From: Siphonodentalium dalli
Taxonomy: Eukaryota; Mollusca; Scaphopoda; Gadilida; Siphonodentaliidae
Reading direction: 5' to 3'
Assembly (NCBI GenBank): GCA_032622095.1
Contig: CP136063.1
Span: 77,415,980 to 77,479,979 of the forward strand
DNA length: 64,000 nucleotides
Below are positions 36,343 through 62,229 of this stretch, piece by piece (within the stretch, counting starts at the first letter, position 1; each line of letters opens with the position of its first letter). A program made the position numbers and the translations under genes. Under the pieces are notes generated by a model. It had not been told where the DNA came from, did no database searches, and worked only from the letters and a program-made list of their open reading frames with translations.

Positions 36343-37222
36343 TACGACGAAATGCCTGCAAAACCCCCCAGATAAATATACCATTGTGTGAACGCGCCCT
36401 AACAGTTGCCTTCAGTAAATAAACACAACTTTAACTTAAAATTGCTTACATTATAGGTTCAAGACCCTCTATACTTAGGCAAAGGAACACCAAAAAAAAG
36501 CTATTTAGGGATCACCGGTCCCTCTCACTATATATCTAACTGACGTCAGAGGATTTATAATACGACACTTACAGAAGCTCCCGAATCCTCTTGATAAATG
36601 ATCCCCTGTCATTTAAAGGGCACGACAGTAAGTGTTGACTTACGACGAAATGCCTGCAAAAAACCCAGATAAATATACCATTGTGTGAACGCGCCCTAAC
36701 AGTTGCCTTCAGTAAATTAACACAACTTTAAATTAAAAATCCTTATATTATAGGTTCAAGACCCTCTATACTTAGGCAAAGGAACACAAAAAAAAGCTAT
36801 TTAGGGATCACCCGACCCTCTCACTAAATTTAGCTGACGTCAGAGGATATATAACACGACACTTACAGAAACTCCCGAATCCCTCTTGATAAATGATCCC
36901 CTGTCATTTAAATGGCACGACAGTAAGTGTTGACTTACGACGAAATGCCTGCAAAAAACCCAGATAAATATACCATTGTGTGAACGCGCCCTAACAGTTG
37001 CCTTCAGTAAATTAACACAACTTTAAATTAAAAATCCTTATATTATAGGTTCAAGACCCTCTTAGGCAAAGGAACAAAACAAAAAGCTATCTAGGGATCA
37101 CCCGACCCTCTCACTAAATTTAGCTGACGTCAGAGGATATATAACACGACACTTACAGAAACTCCCGAATCCCTCTTGATAAATGATCCCTGTCATTTAA
37201 AGGCGCGACAGTAAATGTTGAC
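36343..37222. repeat. Three ~297 bp tandem units
   Basis: Units begin TACGACGAAATGCCTGCAAA at 36343, 36641 and 36936 (periods 298 and 295). Units 2 and 3 are closer to each other than to unit 1. Each contains GAACGCGCCCTAACAGTTGC, GCTGACGTCAGAGGAT and TAAATGATCCC. The first ~60 bp of the unit continue the dispersed repeat to the left, so a piece of that repeat seeded the array. Confidence 0.95.
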
Positions 37223-45877: not shown

Positions 45878-46425
45878 CAAGCGCGGGACAACACGACCCA
45901 GGACAACACGATCCGGGGAAAACCCGACCCAGGGACAACCCAACTCTGGGACAACACGACCCAGGAAAGTCATATCCGGGACAACCCAACCCGAGAAAAA
46001 CCCAACCCGGGGACATCCCGATCCGATGACAACCCAACCCGGGGACAACCCGACCCAGGAAAACCAACCCGGGGACAACCAAACCCGGTGACAACACGAC
46101 CCGGGACAGCTATATCCGGAAAAAACACGACCCAGGGACAACCCAAACCCGGGGACAACCAAACACGGGGACAACACGACCCGGGACAGCCATATCCGTG
46201 GCAACCCGACACAGGGACAACCCGACCCGGGGACAACCAAACCCAGTGAAAACCGACCCAGTGGCAACCCGATCCAGAGACAACGACAAAGGAACAACCC
46301 GACCCGTGACAGCCATATCCGGGGCAACCCGCCCCAGGGGCAACCCACAACCCGACCCAGGGGCAACCCGACCCAGGGAAACCCGACCCAGGGACAACCC
46401 GACCCAGGGGCAACAAGTACACCCA
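45878..46425. repeat. Degenerate ~15-16 bp minisatellite (CCCGACCCAGGGACAA type)
   Basis: About 35 irregular units such as CCCGACCCAGGGACAA, ACACGACCCGGGACAG, CCAAACCCGGGGACAA. Unit length varies 14-18 bases. Long open frames on both strands (up to 191 codons, Gly/Pro/Val-rich) result from the lack of stops in the unit and are not genes. Confidence 0.95.
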
Positions 46426-53278: not shown

Positions 53279-53286
53279 GCCGTACG
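53279..53286 (+). repeat. Putative target-site duplication, left
   Basis: GCCGTACG, identical and in the same orientation as 62222-62229. The inner CGTACG is its own complement, so the 8-mer could partly belong to the inverted repeat, but aligning it that way needs a gap. Confidence 0.6.
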
Positions 53287-53302
53287 CGGTGTGACTAATT
53301 AC

Positions 53303-53370
53303 CGCCCGGGGACCGCCCGGGACCGCCCGGGGACCGCCCGGGGACCGCCCGGGACCGCCCGGGCGGCCCA
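53303..53370. repeat. (ACCGCCCGGG)n decamer tract, left end
   Basis: About six ACCGCCCGGG units, some with an extra G, open the left arm. The mirror tract GGGCGGTCCCGGGCGGTCCC closes the right arm at 62163-62208. Between monomers inside the arms the decamer occurs one to three times, which explains the 170/180 bp period change. Confidence 0.95.
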
Positions 53371-53391
53371 ACGAGCCCGTGGACACAATAT

Positions 53392-55255
53392 CTCGACGGT
53401 ATAACGTAGCGACATGCCACCTGAGGGCAACATAGAAAAATTTACTCGCTCGCTCGTCTCCGGCCGGTCATATTAACCCCACAAATGCCGATATTGGCTA
53501 AAAGAGCCTGGGTGATTACTGGTGTCTTCGTGTGTGTTCAGACAGATTATTTTGGTGATTCTCGGTAGTGCAATAAGTGCAATACACCTGAGTGTTAATT
53601 CCATGTATTGACTCGTTGACGCGTCCACGGCCGATGTTATTAACCCCTCAAATTCCGGTAAAATAGTGTATAAACAAAAGAACCTTGGAACCGCCCGGGA
53701 CCGCCCGGGCGGCCCCATGGGCCCGTGGACACTATATCTCGACGTTATAACATAGCGACATACCCCACGAGGTCAACATACAAAATGTTACTCCCTCGCT
53801 CGACCCCGGCCGGCGTTATTAACCCCTCAAAATCCGATAAAATGGTAAATAGACAAAAAGAACATTAGGACCGCCCGGGACCGCCCGGGTGGCCCCACGT
53901 GCCCGTGGACACAATATCTCGACGTTATAACGTAGCGACATACCCCATGAGGTCAACCTAGAAAATGTTACTCGCTCGCTCGACCCCGGCCGGTGTTATT
54001 AACCCCCCAAAATCCAACAAAATGGTTTATAAACAAAAATAACATTGGGACCGCCCGGGACCGCCCGGGAGGCCCCATGGGCCCGTGGACACTATATCTC
54101 GACGTTATAACGTAGCGACATACCCCACGAGGTCAACCTACAAAATGGTACTCGCTCGCTCGACTCCGGCCGGTGTTATTAACCCCTCAACATCCGATAA
54201 AATGGTATATAAACAAAAATAACATTGGGACCGCCCGGGAGGCCCCATGGGCTCGTGGATACTATATCTCGACGTTATAACGTAGCGACATACCCCATGA
54301 GGTCAACCTAGAAAATGGTACTCGCTCGCTCGACCCCGGCCGGTGTTATTAACCCCTCAAAATCCGATAAAATGGTAAATAGACAAAAAGAACATTAGGA
54401 CCGCCCGGGACCGCCCGGGTGGCCCCACGTGCCCGTGGACACAATATCTCGACGTTATAACGTAGCGACATACCCCACGAGGACAACCTATAAACTGTTA
54501 CTCGCTCGCTCGACTCCGGCCGGTGTTATTAACCCCTCAAAATCCGATAAAATGGTATATAAACAAAAAGAACATTGGGACCGCCCGGGACCGCCCGGGA
54601 GGCCCCATGGGCCCGTGGACACTATATCTCGACGTTATAACGTAGCGACATACCCCACGAGGTCAACCTACAAAATGGTACTCGCTCGCTCGACCCCGGC
54701 CGGTGTTATTAACCCCTCAACATCCGATAAAATGGTATATAAACAATAAGAACATTGGGACCCGCCCGGGAACGCCCGGGAGGCCCCATGGGCCGTGGAC
54801 ACTATATCTCGACGTTATAACGTAGCGACATACCCCACGAGGTCAACCTACAAAATGGTACTCGCTCGCTCGACCCCGGCCGGTGTTATTAACCCCTCAA
54901 CATCCGATAAAATGGTATATAAACAATAAGAACATTGGGACCGCCCGGGACCGCCCGGGAGGCCCCATGGGCCCGTGGACACTATATCTCGACGTTATAA
55001 CGTAGCGACATACCCCACGAGGTCAACCTACAAAATGGTACTCGCTCGCTCGACCCCGGCCGGTGTTATTAACCCCTCAACATCCGATAAAATGGTATAT
55101 AAACAAAAAGAACATTGGGACCCGCCCGGGACCGCCCGGGAGGCCCCATGGGCCCGTGGACACTATATCTCGACATTATAACGTAGCGACATACCCCACG
55201 AGGTCAACCTAGAAAATCTTACTCGCTCACTCGACTCCGGTCGGTATTATTAACC
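53392..55255 (+). repeat. Left array of ~180 bp monomers
   Basis: The landmark CTCGACGTTATAACGTAGCG (with variants) starts at 53392, 53738, 53918, 54098, 54268, 54448, 54628, 54808, 54988 and 55169, spacing 180 except one 170 and the first, 346, which holds the spacer module. Each monomer holds the decamer, GGCCCCATGGGCCCGTGG, the palindrome ACGTTATAACGT, CTCGCTCGCTCGA, GGCCGGTGTTATTAACCCC and ATGGTATATAAACAAAAAG (a TATA-like string). 180 is 60 codons without a stop, so long open frames run through it. Confidence 0.95.
53485..53655 (+). repeat. Spacer module M1
   Basis: ~165 bp inserted in the outermost left monomer: GCCGATATTGGCTAAAAGAG ... GTGTCTTCGTGTGTGTTCAG ... TATTGACTCGTTGACGCGTC. Inverse copies lie at 56945-57112 and 61885-62045; a diverged same-orientation copy at 55262-55395. 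On the minus strand it is open (VDASTSQYMELTLRCIALIA). Confidence 0.9.
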
Positions 55256-55256
55256 C

Positions 55257-55595
55257 CTAAAAATCCAATATTGGATAAGAGGGCACGGACAGCTCGGTGT
55301 CTTCTTTTGATTTCAAACAGCATATTTTGATGATGCATGGTAGTGCAATACCACCGATAGTGACTTCCAGATATTGACTCGCTGACGCGTCAACACAAAA
55401 TACCGTATCACCATAAATATTCGGCTCTACATGATCGTAAATATCGCAATTTTCTTGAATGTTTTCAATAAAAATTAATAACTTTACACCTATAATTTTT
55501 ATATTTTGACACGAGCGGGTGTAATTGTGTTGATTTCGACAGCAACTGCTTGTCTGAAGAGAGCCGCGGCAGCTGTTTGAATGTGTTGATATCAA
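55257..55595 (-). CDS. Open frame over module M2, unknown product
   Basis: 112 codons, MISTHSNSCRGSLQTSSCCR at the start, then a middle part without relatives, then VDASASQYLEVTIGGIALP, KICCLKSKEDT, stop. The C-terminal half aligns with the open frames over the outer modules (VDASTSQYMELTLRCIALIA, KIICLNTHEDT); the length difference is three whole codons. That the diverged inner copy keeps the frame hints that the segment was once coding, perhaps a captured exon. No family is recognised, and transcription is unknown. Confidence 0.25.
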   Translation of the reverse strand: MISTHSNSCRGSLQTSSCCRNQHNYTRSCQNIKIIGVKLLIFIENIQENCDIYDHVEPNIYGDTVFCVDASASQYLEVTIGGIALPCIIKICCLKSKEDTELSVPSYPILDF

Positions 55596-55829
55596 TTAGC
55601 AGTAAAACGGTATCGCAATTGTTATATTGTATACATTAACCACTTCACAATAATCAGAAGACATATTGGCGGATTTAAACCGAAACTGTGTTTTCATAAC
55701 ACTTGGGGAAGACGAACAGGTAATCTCGTGACAACAGCGGAGATTTGCGATGAGGTTTCCGTGTTTTTATTGCAATCGAAAATGGTCGTAATCCCAAAAT
55801 CTTCTTGGTGCTAGACAATAACGATCAAG

Positions 55830-56049
55830 ATGACGAAGAGAGTATTTGTGATATTGGAAACCCGTGTACTTAATTTGCTTACCGACCAATCACACGATAT
55901 TACGTTATGGGGTAGATTATATATAATCGTGTGTGAATTAAAAATAAAATATAATTTTAAATATCTTAAAATCATGCGACCACGTATTCGATTCACGCTT
56001 CCATCCATGGTGCTGTATCCGTGTTCCGTCTGCTCTACTGAAGCTGAAG
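55830..56049 (+). CDS. Possible exon in the core, unknown product
   Basis: Starts MTKRVFVILETRVLNLLTDQ, ends YPCSVCSTEAE at 56049 where GTGAGT follows (GAAG|GTGAGT), a good 5' splice site in phase 1. It has a CSVC pair near the end. No acceptor with a compatible phase is obvious before the next open segment. If not spliced, the frame stops 20 bases on. Confidence 0.2.
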
Positions 56050-56097
56050 GTGAGTCAATATATTTTATATGACCATATTACATATTATATATTTTCT

Positions 56098-56301
56098 TTA
56101 TTTGCTCCACATATGGAGAGTATGATGACCTCCATCACCGGGAATAATGTTTTCAGTCCTTGCCCAAAAGGTCGTGGGTTGGGTTGCAATATGGGGAGGT
56201 ACTTTGACCATGCAGGAAAATCATATTATACATGTCCAGTTGACATCAGATGTCTTAAAAGGGCACTAATTATTAATAAAATAAAAACATTAATTATATA
56301 A
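56098..56301 (+). CDS. Cys-containing open segment in the core
   Basis: Key part: NNVFSPCPKGRGLGCNMGRY then FDHAGKSYYTCPVDIRC. The four cysteines and NMGRYF...YYTCP spacing recall GRF-type zinc fingers (NxGRxFYxCP), which occur in some transposon and DNA-repair proteins. The likeness is partial, the segment is short, and its link to 55830-56049 is unproven. Confidence 0.25.
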   Translation, partial: LFAPHMESMMTSITGNNVFSPCPKGRGLGCNMGRYFDHAGKSYYTCPVDIRCLKRALIINKIKTLII

Positions 56302-56490
56302 CCAAAATAGTTGAAATCTAATCGGTGAAAATTGAAACATGTGGGTAAAATTGGCCCATGGCGTGTCAAGAGAAAAGGGCACTAAGTATTGGTAAAATAA
56401 AATAATTAAATTTATAACCAAAATTGTTGCAATCTGATCGGTGACAATTGAAACATGTGGGTAAAATTAGCCCACAGCGTGTCAAGAGTT
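56257..56490. repeat. ~118 bp tandem duplication in the core
   Basis: AAAAGGGCACTAATTATTAA ... ACATGTGGGTAAAATTGGCC, GTGTCAAGAG recurs as AAAAGGGCACTAAGTATTGG ... ACATGTGGGTAAAATTAGCC, GTGTCAAGAG. Confidence 0.9.
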
Positions 56491-56689
56491 ATAGATGCTG
56501 TTGACTTCAGACGACTTAAAGGGGCAAATACGATCAATAAACGCTCTGTATTGGTCATAATATGATAATATTCCAGGCATGTATAAATTGGTGCGTTAGA
56601 TTAGACTAGTCGAACCTTAAATAGTGACTTTTCAATTTCTATAAGTGGAGATAGACCTGCGAACAAATATATGCGATCTGATTTGGTTT

Positions 56690-56724
56690 GTGGGGGGGGG
56701 GGGGGTAACGTTTCCCCCCCCCCG
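56690..56724. repeat. G-run / C-run inverted repeat
   Basis: A run of ~14 G, TAACGTTT, then a run of ~10 C. Can form a hairpin or, on one strand, G-quadruplex-type structure. It lies between the core open segments and the right arm. Confidence 0.9.
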
Positions 56725-56904
56725 AACGCGGCCAGTGGCGGGCTAACCTGCTAGTCTATACTATATATTTTGAGACTTCGTATATATATGTGTCCTCGAT
56801 AGAATTGAAAACGGCTGACTCGATTGAGCTCAAACTTCCCATCTAATGGTAAAATCGCTAGGGAATCGTCGTCGCGGCGTTTTGGAGAAGCTCTCATTGA
56901 AAAA

Positions 56905-57215
56905 GGTTCCAAGGTTCTTTTGTTTATACACTATTTTACCGGAATTTGAGGGGTTAATAACATCGGCCGTGGACGCGTCAACGAGTCAATACATGGAAAT
57001 AACACTCAGGTGTATTGCACTTATTGCACTACCAAGAATCACCAAAATAATCTGTCTGAAAACACACGAAGACACCAGTAATCACCCAGGCTCTTTTAGC
57101 CAATATCGGCATTTGTGGGGTTAATATGACCGACCGGAGACGAGCGAGCGAGTAAATTTTTCTATGTTGCCCTCAGGTGGCATGTCGCGACGTTATACCG
57201 TCGAGATATTGTGTT
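56905..57215 (-). repeat. Spacer module M3 with flanking half-monomers
   Basis: Inverse copy of the outer-left block: GGTTCCAAGGTTCTTTTGTT ... GACGCGTCAACGAGTCAATA ... GTATTGCACTTATTGCACTA ... CAGTAATCACCCAGGCTC. Opens the right array on its inner side. Confidence 0.9.
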
Positions 57216-60200
57216 CACGGGCACGTGGGGCCACCCGGGCGGTCCCGGGCGGTCCCAATGTTCTTTTTGTCTATATACCATTTTATCGGATTTTGAGGGG
57301 TTAATAACGCCGGCCGGAGTCGAGCGAGCGAGTACAATTTTGTAGGTTGACCTCGTGGGGTATGTCGCTACGTTATAACGTCGCGATATAGTGTCCATGG
57401 GCCCATGGGGCCTCCCGGGCGGTCCCGGGCGGTCCCAATGTTCTTTTTGTTTATATACCATTTTGTCGGATTTTTAGGGGTTAATATCACCGGCCGGAGT
57501 CGAGCGAGCGAGTAACATTTTCTAGGTTGACCTCATGGGGTATGTCGCTACGTTATAACGTCGAGATATTGTGTCCACGGGCACGTGGGGCCACCCGGGC
57601 GGTCCCGGGCGGTCCCAATGTTCTTTTTGTCTATATACCATTTTGTCGGATTTTGAGGGGTTAATAACATCGGCCGGGGTCGAGCGAGCGAGTACCATTT
57701 TCTAGGTGGGGTATGTCGCTATGTTATAACGTCGAGATATTGTGTCCACGGGCACGTGGGGCCACCCGGGCGGTCCCGGGCGGTCCCGATGTTCTTTTTG
57801 TCTATATACCATTTTGTCGGATTTTGAGGGGTTAATAACGCCGGCCGGAGTCGAGCGAGCGAGTACAATTTTGTAGGTTGACCTCGTGGGGTATGTCGCT
57901 ACGTTATAACGTCGCGATATAGTGTCCATGGGCCCATGGGGCCTCCCGGGCGGTCCCGGGCGGTCCCAATGTTCTTTTTGTTTATATACCATTTTGTCGG
58001 ATTTTGAGGGGTTAATAGCGCCGGCCGGGGTCGAGCGAGGGAGTAACATTTTGTAGGTTGACCTCGTGGGGTATGTCGCTATGTTATAACGTCGAGATAT
58101 AGTGTCCACGGGCCCATGGTGCCTCCCGGGCGGTTTCGGGCGGTCCCAATGTTCTTTTTGTTTATATACCATTTTATCGGATTTTGAGGGGTTAATAACA
58201 CCGGCCGGAGTCGAGCGAGCGAGTAACATTTTGTAGGTTGACCTCGTGGGGTATGTCGCTACGTTATAACGTCGAGATATTGTGTCCACGGGCACGTGGG
58301 GCCACCCGGGCGGTCCCGGGCGGTCCCAGTGTTCTTTTTGTCTATATACCATTTTGCCGGTTTTTAGGGGTTAATAACACCGGCCGGGGTCGAGCGAGCG
58401 AGTACCATTTTCTAGGTTGACCTCATGGGGTATGTCGCTACGTTATAACGTCGAGATATAGTGTACACGAGCCCATAGGGCCTCCCGGGCGGTCCCAATG
58501 TTCTTTTTGTTTATATACCATTTTATCGGATGTTGAGGGGTTAATAACACCGGACGGAGTCGAGCGAGCGAGTACCATTTTTTAGGTTGACCTCGTGGGG
58601 TATTTGTCGCTACGTTATAACGTCGAGATATAGTGTCCACGGGCCCATGTGGCCTCCCGGGCGTTCCCGGGCGGTCCCAATGTTCTTTTTGTTTATATAC
58701 CATTTTGTCGGATTTTGAGGGGTTAATAACACCGGCCGGGTTCGAGCGAGCGAGTATCATTTTCTAGGTGGGGTATGTCGCTATGTTATAACGTCGAGAT
58801 ATAGTGTCCACGTGCCCATGGGGCCTCCCGGGCGGTCCCGGGGGTCCCAATGTTCTTATTGTTTATATACCATTTTATCGGATTGTGAGTGGTTAATAAC
58901 ACCGGCCGGAGTCGAGCGAGCAAGCAACATTTTGTATGTTGATCTCGTGGGGTATGTCGTTACGTTATAACGTCGAGATATAGTGTCCACGGGCCCATTG
59001 TGCCTCCCGGGCGGTTTCGGGCGGTCCCAATGTTCTTTTTGTTTATATACCATTTTATCGGATTTTGAGGGGTTAATAACACCGGCCGGAGTCGAGCGAG
59101 CGAGTAACATTTTGTAGGTTGACCTCGTGGGGTATGTCGCTACGTTATAACGTCGAGATATTGTGTCCACGGGCACGTGGGGCCACCCGGGCGGTCCCGG
59201 GCGGTCCCAATGTTCTTTTTGTCTATATACCATTTTGCCGGTTTTTAGGGGTTAATAACACCGGCCGGGGTCGAGCGAGCGAGTACCATTTTCTAGGTTG
59301 ACCTCATGGGGTATGTCGCTACGTTATAACGTCGAGATATAGTGTACACGAGCCCATAGGGCCTCCCGGGCGGTCCCAATGTTTTTTGATTATATACCAT
59401 TTTATCGGATGTTGAGGGGTTAATAACACCGGCCGGAGTCGAGCGAGCGAGTAACATTTTGTAGGTTGACCTCGTGGGGTATGTCGCTACGTTATAACGT
59501 CGAGATATTGTGTCCACGGGCACGTGGGGCCACCCGGGCGGTCCCGGGCGGTCCCGATGTTCTTTTTGTCTATATACCATTTTGCCGGTTTTTAGGGGTT
59601 AATAACACCGGCCGGGGTCGAGCGAGCGAGTACCATTTTCTAGGTTGACCTCATGGGGTATGTCGCTACGTTATAACGTCGAGATATAGTGTACACGAGC
59701 CCATAGGGCCTCCCGGGCGGTCCCAATGTTCTTTTTGTTTATATACCATTTTATCGGATGTTGAGGGGTTAATAACACCGGACGGAGTCGAGCGAGCGAG
59801 TACCATTTTTTAGGTTGACCTCGTGGGGTATTTGTCGCTACGTTATAACGTCGAGATATAGTGTCCACGGGCCCATGTGGCCTCCCGGGCGTTCCCGGGC
59901 GGTCCCAATGTTCTTTTTGTTTATATACCATTTTGTCGGATTTTGAGGGGTTAATAACACCGGCCGGGTTCGAGCGAGCGAGTATCATTTTCTAGGTGGG
60001 GTATGTCGCTATGTTATAACGTCGAGATATAGTGTCCACGTGCCCATGGGGCCTCCCGGGCGGTCCCGGGGGTCCCAATGTTCTTATTGTTTATATACCA
60101 TTTTATCGGATTGTGAGTGGTTAATAACACCGGCCGGAGTCGAGCGAGCAAGCAACATTTTGTATGTTGATCTCGTGGGGTATGTCGTTACGTTATAACG

Positions 60201-62200
60201 TCGAGATATAGTGTCCACGGGCCCATTGTGCCTCCCGGGCGGTTTCGGGCGGTCCCAATGTTCTTTTTGTTTATATACCATTTTATCGGATTTTGAGGGG
60301 TTAATAACACCGGCCGGAGTCGAGCGAGCGAGTAACATTTTGTAGGTTGACCTCGTGGGGTATGTCGCTACGTTATAACGTCGAGATATTGTGTCCACGG
60401 GCACGTGGGGCCACCCGGGCGGTCCCGGGCGGTCCCAATGTTCTTTTTGTCTATATACCATTTTGCCGGTTTTTAGGGGTTAATAACACCGGCCGGGGTC
60501 GAGCGAGCGAGTACCATTTTCTAGGTTGACCTCATGGGGTATGTCGCTACGTTATAACGTCGAGATATAGTGTACACGAGCCCATAGGGCCTCCCGGGCG
60601 GTCCCAATGTTTTTTGATTATATACCATTTTATCGGATGTTGAGGGGTTAATAACACCGGCCGGAGTCGAGCGAGCGAGTACCATTTTTTAGGTTGACCT
60701 CGTGGGGTATGTCGCTACGTTATAACGTCGAGATATAGTGTCCACGGGCCCATGTGACCTCCAGGGCGTTCCCGGGCGGTCCCAATGTTCTTTTTGTTTA
60801 TATACCATTTTGTCGGATTTTGAGGGGTTAATAACACCGGCCGGGGTCGAGCGAGCGAGAATCATTTTCTAGGTGGGGTATGTCGCTATGTTATAACGTC
60901 GAGATATAGTGTCCACGTGCCCATGGGGCCTCCCGGGCGGTCCCGGGGGGTCCCAATGTTCTTATTGTTTATATACCATTTTATCGGATTTTGAGGGGTT
61001 AATAACACCGGCCGGAGTCGAGCGAGCAAGCAACATTTTGTATGTTGATCTCGTGGGGTATGTCGCTACGTTATAACGTCGAGATATAGTGTCCACGGGC
61101 CCATTGTGCCTCCCGGGCGGTTTCGGGCGGTCCCAATGTTCTTTTTGTTTATATACCATTTTATCGGATTTTGAGGGGTTAATAACACCGGCCGGAGTCG
61201 AGCGAGCGAGTAACATTTTGTAGGTTAACCTCGTGGGGTATGTCGCTACGTTATAACGTCGAGATATTGTGTCCACGGGCACGTGGGGCCACCCGGGCGG
61301 TCCCGGGCGGTCCCAATGTTCTTTTTGTCTATATACCATTTTGCCGGTTTTTAGGGGTTAATAACACCGGCCGGGGTCGAGCGAGCGAGTACCATTTTCT
61401 AGGTTGACCTCATGGGGTATGTCGCTACGTTATAACGTCGAGATATAGTGTACACGAGCCCATAGGGCCTCCCGGGTGGTCCCAATGTTCTTTTTGTTTA
61501 TATACCATTTTGTTGGATTTTGAGGGGTTAATAACACCGGCCGGGGTCGAGCGAGCGAGTAACATTTTCTAGGTTGACCTCATGGGGTATGTCGCTACGT
61601 TATAACGTCGAGATATTGTGTCCACGGGCACGTGGGGCCACCCGGGCGGTCCCGGGCGGTCCCAATGTTCTTTTTGTCTATATACCATTTTGTCGGATTT
61701 TGAGGGGTTAATAACGCCGGCCGGGGTCGAGCGAGGGAGTAACATTTTGTAGGTTGACCTCGTGGGGTATGTCGCTATGTTATAAAGTCGAGATATAGTG
61801 TCCACGGGCCCATGGGGCCGCCCGGGCGGTCCCGGGCGGTTCCAAGGTTCTTTTGTTTATACACTATTTTACCGGAATTTGAGGGGTTAATAACATCGGC
61901 CGTGGACGCGTCAACGAGTCAATACATGGAATTTACACTCAGGTGTATTGCACTTATTGCACTACCGAGAATCACCAAAATAATCTGTCTGAACACACAC
62001 GAAGACACCAGTAATCACCCAGGCTATTTTAGCCAATATCGGCATTTGTGGGGTTAATATGACCGGCCGGAGACGAGCGAGCGAGTAAATTTGTCTATGT
62101 TGCCCTCAGGTGGCATGTCGCTACGTTATACCGTCGAGATATTGTGTCCACGGGCTCGTTGGGCCGCCCGGGCGGTCCCGGGCGGTCCCGGGCGGTCCCC
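57190..62200 (-). repeat. Right array of ~180 bp monomers
   Basis: About 28 monomers in the opposite orientation to the left array, counted from the CGTTATAACGTCGAGATAT landmark (57190 to 62125). Period ~170-180, set by the number of GGTCCCGGGC decamers. Two alternating subtypes (TGTGTCCACGGGCACGTGG and AGTGTCCACGGGCCCATGG). Some monomers lack the GTTGACCTC block (57707, 58767, 59994, 60871). A higher-order period is described separately. Confidence 0.95.
58185..60680. repeat. 1,228-bp higher-order repeat inside the right array
   Basis: Every rare variant recurs 1,228 bases later: GTATTTGTCGCTACG (58601, 59829), CGGTCCCGGGGGTCCC (58843, 60071), TTATCGGATTGTGAGTGG (58876, 60104), GTTTTTTGATTATATACC (59381, 60609). 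The two copies look near-identical over >1 kb. A third, partial copy starts at ~60880 with an 878-base offset. Confidence 0.9.
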
Positions 62201-62221
62201 GGGCGGTAATTAGTCACACCC
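61815..62221 (-). repeat. Right terminal inverted repeat with module M4
   Basis: Inverse of 53287-53716: GGCGGTTCCAAGGTTC, module M4 (61885-62045), GACCGGCCGGAGACGAGCGA, CTATGTTGCCCTCAGGTGGC, GGGCTCGTTGGGCCGCCCGG, then the decamer tract and GGTAATTAGTCACACCC. Similarity to the left end is higher by eye than between neighbouring monomers. Confidence 0.93.
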
Positions 62222-62229
62222 GCCGTACG
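62222..62229 (+). repeat. Putative target-site duplication, right
   Basis: GCCGTACG, same as 53279-53286. Confidence 0.6.

Follow-up and report, generated by a model that had tools for sequence, protein, structure and literature searches.

How do arrays that resemble satellite DNA come to stand in opposite orientation on either side of a short core, and do they belong to one mobile unit? This question is raised by a stretch of 64,000 nucleotides (hereafter the window) from the scaphopod Siphonodentalium dalli (GenBank assembly GCA_032622095.1, contig CP136063.1, forward-strand positions 77,415,980 to 77,479,979), in which an element of 8935 bp occupies positions 53287-62221 between two copies of GCCGTACG. 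An initial annotation had read the locus as a single foldback transposon of a family it did not recognise, with arms that could seed satellite DNA. Our analysis places it in a family of hundreds of copies with coding members in the same genome. The element is very probably a non-autonomous, internally deleted transposon of the Mutator superfamily, Rehavkus-like in character, whose terminal inverted repeats (TIRs) have grown into satellite arrays.

The inverted ends, their coordinates and the 8-bp duplication were as initially annotated. On the left, the target site duplication (TSD, 53279-53286) is followed by an unpaired C at 53287 and then by GGTGTGAC; on the right, GTCACACC is followed by a C at 62221 and the second TSD (62222-62229). 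The one base outside GGTGTGAC is thus a C at both ends of the same strand, and inward reading gives CGGTGTGAC and GGGTGTGAC for the two ends, the left one being C-type. The two terminal domains are 98.7% identical over 319 bp, and long TIRs, as in MULE transposons, are present. Tandem Repeats Finder (TRF) reports 180-bp arrays of 9.2 copies (53628-55270) and 27.2 copies (57104-61902), and a hidden Markov model count (nhmmer) gives 10 and 28 monomers, in agreement with the opposed arms of ~10 and ~28 monomers of ~180 bp first described. The ~1.5 kb AT-rich core is likewise present, with a GC content of 0.38 compared with 0.53 in the left arm, 0.51 in the right arm and 0.40 in the whole window. 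By sequence comparison, the repeat unit of the arms derives from the subterminal part of the end, of which it is a tandem duplicate. The family has the foldback architecture, that is, TIRs made of tandem repeats and variable in length, with 0-28 monomers per arm and mostly unequal numbers at the two ends. The left flank, which had been described as a tandem repeat interrupted at the element, does carry a diverged repeat (68-77% between copies) ending about 5 bp short of the left TSD; past the right end, this repeat was not found to resume.

The ends are far from single-copy. Genome searches covered nine contigs (C1-C9), and placed positions are those among the matches listed, the first 100 per search. 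The 20-mer of the end has 3305 genome matches at up to 2 mismatches and its reversed control has none, which excludes chance. Exact C-type ends number 172 on the forward and 183 on the reverse strand, exact G-type ends 152 and 159, and elements with exact ends about 335. Among the matches listed, 64 of 72 neighbouring ends less than 25 kb apart converge, and 62 of these 64 pairs consist of one C end and one G end, with a median size of 4.4 kb and a range of 0.17-21 kb. The family also has a small extreme, a copy like a miniature inverted-repeat transposable element (L010, C1:229080514-229080722) of 209 bp with both ends, one monomer-like match and no arms.

Flanks were compared for duplications in a set of 23 complete copies, made up of 20 whole C1 copies, two long copies and the window element, taking the 8-mer just outside the extra terminal base. 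The two 8-mers match at 7 or more of 8 bases in 17 of the 23 copies but in only 1 of 506 mismatched pairings; in one more copy (L026) an exact 8-mer is present at an offset of one base. An empty counterpart of the window insertion site was found nowhere else in the genome. A sister insertion (L021, TSD GTCCAACC) sits in a dispersed repeat. Elsewhere in the genome, the site without the insertion, in which GTCCAACC is present once, has 871 matches when up to 3 mismatches are allowed, and 56 of these are exact, which shows precise insertion with an 8-bp duplication. Both TSDs and empty sites therefore give 8 bp, within the 8-11 bp stated for the MULE superfamily in the part of PMC6446971 that deals with it. 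The initial view of one mobile unit is backed by the TSDs, the paired ends and the empty sites of the sister insertion. The window core has 51 matches, the full-length ones 93-100% identical, and the cores of other copies, up to 99-100% identical, suggest that the element was recently mobile.

Which enzyme could move such an element? Several core matches extend beyond the point at which the window core stops, and coding copies that share these ends and measure 16-19 kb, the kind of autonomous partner that the initial annotation had proposed to look for, were found. A copy of 18.2 kb (C1:120936969-120955165) has the same ends, the same arms and the first 1.6 kb of the same core, followed by open reading frames (ORFs) for an OTU protease (PF02338 in the long copies, 2.5e-6), for a product of 361 aa and for a MULE transposase of 404 aa (PF10551, 5.7e-6; PF00872, 1.1e-3; IS256-type, 3.7e-6). 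A MULE-type DDE transposase is hence linked to the ends seen in the window. Its DDE residues, taken from the alignment, lie in GVDRTF, GSDEE and TNNACES and have counterparts in relatives. A 16.3-kb copy (C2:38309125-38325428) encodes OTU and a PHD finger (PF00628, 9.5e-7, above cut-off) without a transposase ORF, and a complete copy of 18.85 kb (C4:99481104-99499953) has a TSD, GTACCCAT, that matches at 8/8 bases and a 402-aa transposase ORF (98.8% identical). Across four transposase copies, identity is 99-100% and the frames are open. Since ends, arms and the start of the core are shared with these copies, the window copy is best read as an internal-deletion, non-autonomous derivative. The family left unnamed at first can accordingly be assigned to the Mutator superfamily.

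Several points weigh against this reading. The case for mobility is built from sequence comparison. The MULE domain of the 404-aa ORF scores 27.1 bits, just below the Pfam cut-off of 27.6, although this is offset by a 40% identical relative that passes PF00872 (29.2 bits against a cut-off of 21). The 18.2-kb copy has a TSD of only 6/8 and a Cys-to-Tyr change in its PHD finger, so it may be damaged itself. The 18.85-kb copy is complete as judged by its ends and TSD, with a coding region that is predicted.

Other explanations of the locus would do without such a transposon. Long inverted arrays assemble poorly, and the right arm contains an exact 1124-bp duplication, so that two separate satellite blocks in opposite orientation might have been joined by inverted duplication or by misassembly, the latter being a possibility that the initial annotation itself had raised. 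This is extremely improbable, as hundreds of independent copies exist with ends paired 0.2-21 kb apart, differing flanks and matching 8-bp TSDs; the arms account for the monomers, and only the exact arm length remains for read-level checking. It is also conceivable that most copies owe their spread to another repeat that carried them along or to segmental duplication. The occupied GTCCAACC junction occurs 39 times, on all nine contigs, and the flanks of three of these copies align at 93-99.6%, which shows an insertion later carried around by its host repeat. Yet such hitch-hiking explains a small share of the at least 335 sites, about 35; TSDs and flanks differ in the other copies, the 8-mers being mostly distinct among the 23, and as the main route of spread it is very unlikely. 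Tandem-repeat arms and foldback architecture are shared with Galileo (PMC4079207), a P-superfamily element whose P-type transposase has a THAP domain (PMC4079207, PMC3169594). The coding copies here gave no match to THAP and carry a MULE transposase, PHD and OTU instead, with a TSD of 8 bp; membership of the P superfamily was rejected, and a Galileo-like foldback has hardly any probability left. The Mutator-superfamily transposon remains the preferred reading.

How might such an element move and its arms grow? Transposase from the 16-19 kb copies would recognise the shared ends in trans, and insertion would proceed, as in the superfamily, through 8-bp staggered cuts that leave the TSDs observed. 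The arm monomers would probably multiply transposase-binding sites, a role proposed for such arms by the authors of the Galileo and Tetris work (PMC4079207). Arm length changes after the birth of an element by tandem exchange; growth in place is shown by the exact 1124-bp duplication in the right arm together with the 0-28 monomers per arm across copies. Monomers are 0.88-0.90 identical within an element and 0.87 between elements, values so nearly equal that homogenisation must be weak. Both orientations of the core are found when it is compared with the C and G ends (10 versus 7), with end polarity kept. Pairing of the inverted arms may flip it, and recombination between them would be the simplest cause.

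The first proposal, that the arms could seed satellite DNA, finds only partial support. In the genome, the monomer motif is matched 3493 times on the forward and 3715 times on the reverse strand (7208, strand-balanced), and a sample of 46 ends holds 339 monomer matches; at this rate the 7208 correspond to about 490 elements, which argues against a large free 180-bp array, and by the genome match count there is no megabase array of the monomer. What does stand is the presence of small composite tandem arrays at C2 41.287 Mb (at least 4 ends) and C4 163.18 Mb (at least 2 ends; loci L053 and L054), in which head-to-tail units of 2.85-3.0 kb consist of the right half of the element and 1477 bp of downstream flank, with 3154 bp 100% identical between the two chromosomes. 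The 1477-bp flank carries 161-bp internal repeats. Variant ends with up to 2 mismatches are strand-skewed (1163 forward versus 2142 reverse), and changes at position 4, 7 or 16 carry the reverse-strand excess (1028 versus 2006), leaving about 980 same-strand copies unaccounted for. Exact ends, position-17 variants, the sibling end and the monomer are all balanced and were rejected as sources of the asymmetry. Among the matches listed, the excess was not seen at the 1- and 2-mismatch places of C1-C3, and a one-directional tandem array of ~980 units carrying an old end, on C4-C9, likely lies behind it. Small clusters of variant ends occur at C2:216614145-216623224 and C3:229435447-229449023. Weighing the composite units and the excess copies against the strand-balanced monomer count, we regard the seeding of true chromosomal satellite arrays by the arms as rather unlikely.

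Relatives indicate how far these features extend. At C4:85.61 Mb, an 85% identical transposase precedes a 339-bp array (6.5 copies) that adjoins an end, GGTGTGACTAATTAGTGCCC; a 79-bp block of this array is 77% alike to the terminal domain of the window family. The sibling end has 271 forward and 262 reverse matches, arranged in convergent pairs, three of which enclose transposase fragments. The 40% identical relative at C5:248.31 Mb (L065-L067) encodes PHD, OTU (weak, E 0.079) and MULE in one ORF of 1076 aa. Its TIRs measure 457 bp, its ends are CGG.../GGG..., and its TSD, CAGAAAAC, is 8 bp long. The element is inserted in a 205-bp satellite array of about 58 units, and its empty site occurs 54 times as an exact match in uninterrupted 205-bp units. 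Satellite arms were rejected for this relative because the flanking 205-bp arrays run in the same direction, the element sitting in a pre-existing satellite. C/G end polarity and the 8-bp TSD thus recur in the 40% relative, and satellite arms are seen only in the window family and the 85% sibling. After a 77% identical transposase (C1:113.965-113.976 Mb; L064, L068) comes a 353-bp array with at least 25 units that are 98% alike; over 9 kb of this array no end was reached and no similarity to the terminal domain was found. One could imagine a Rehavkus-like MULE lineage in which the subterminal binding region of each subfamily becomes its own satellite (180 bp, or 339 bp for the sibling), the core is inverted by arms that grow in place, and old arms or ends pass into chromosomal arrays, possibly including the ~980-copy cluster. 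Transposons would then turn into satellites in an unbroken series, in a genome that still has near-identical transposase copies; we consider this full scenario speculative and unlikely.

Among known systems, Rehavkus is the closest by its described features. The MULE-related Rehavkus-1_TC of Tribolium measures 9.5 kb, with 164-bp satellite monomers (TCsat23) in its inverted termini, in arrays of mostly 5 and 8 (PMC10218199), and for Rehavkus elements, listed from arthropods and annelids, a TSD of 9 bp, a minisatellite and a PHD finger are given (PMC6446971). The window family resembles them in its PHD finger (PF00628, in the 16-kb copy), MULE-type DDE transposase and inverted termini of satellite monomers (PMC10218199; PMC6446971). 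Unlike the 9 bp given in PMC6446971, the TSD is 8 bp, both here and in the C5:248.31 Mb relative; the arms reach 28 monomers, the transposase of the 18-kb element extends over several frames, and the OTU domain is one that the portions of PMC10218199 and PMC6446971 concerned with Rehavkus do not mention. The family is therefore a Rehavkus-like member of the MULE superfamily, not proven Rehavkus. Tetris of Drosophila virilis is also a foldback with ~220-bp tandem repeats in its TIRs, derived as here from the terminal domain, and 8-10 bp TSDs; it has been suggested to be Mutator and linked to satellite DNA (PMC4079207). Unlike Tetris, of which three copies are structurally complete and no autonomous partner is known, the window family has hundreds of copies and coding partners, and it lacks a large free monomer array. 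Tm1 of root-knot nematodes, a Mutator/foldback element with composite TIRs of tandem repeats, shares the asymmetric terminal motifs at its two ends and the co-occurrence of non-autonomous and transposase-encoding forms, but has 14-bp repeats, a 9-bp TSD and a Phantom-type transposase with FLYWCH (PMC3169594). Galileo and FB of Drosophila are foldbacks with tandem-repeat arms like these, Galileo differing in transposase and TSD.

Table 1. Parts of the element and their positions in the window.
Feature	Position	Strand	Remarks
Left TSD copy GCCGTACG	53279..53286	.	8 bp, identical to 62222-62229
Left terminal domain	53287..53640	+	Unpaired terminal C, GGTGTGACTAATTACCGCCC, (ACCGCCCGGG)n run and subterminal block, the source of the arm monomer
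Left arm	53628..55270	+	~10 tandem monomers of ~180 bp (TRF, nhmmer)
Inner boundary block	55271..55400	+	Like the spacer of the terminal domain; from sequence, present in other copies too
AT-rich core	55400..56890	+	Corresponds to the first ~1.6 kb of the core of the long coding copies; PHD, OTU and transposase regions absent
Inner copy of terminal domain	56957..57256	-	97% over 300 bp; inner edge of right arm
Right arm	57104..61902	-	~28 tandem monomers, orientation opposite to left arm (TRF, nhmmer)
1124-bp exact direct duplication, copy 1	58330..59453	-	In right arm; about 7 monomers, shift 1228
1124-bp exact direct duplication, copy 2	59558..60681	-	In right arm
Right terminal domain and end	61868..62221	-	G-type end when read inward
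Right TSD copy GCCGTACG	62222..62229	.	Matches left copy

A GRF zinc finger considered for the window core was rejected, being a motif resemblance only (Pfam E 0.37). Elsewhere in the window, a degenerate 16-bp minisatellite (GGGACAACCCGACCCA) of about 33 units lies at 45884-46414, and a 295-bp unit is repeated in three tandem copies, 94% alike, at 36343-37222.

Most foldback elements in the literature compared here, Tetris included, lack a coding element that moves them. In S. dalli, non-autonomous copies, near-identical transposase copies, a sibling with its own monomer length, empty sites and early composite arrays coexist and are young. Such coexistence opens to test how a transposon arm becomes satellite DNA, and it adds well-anchored copies to Rehavkus, a branch of the superfamily known from few elements.

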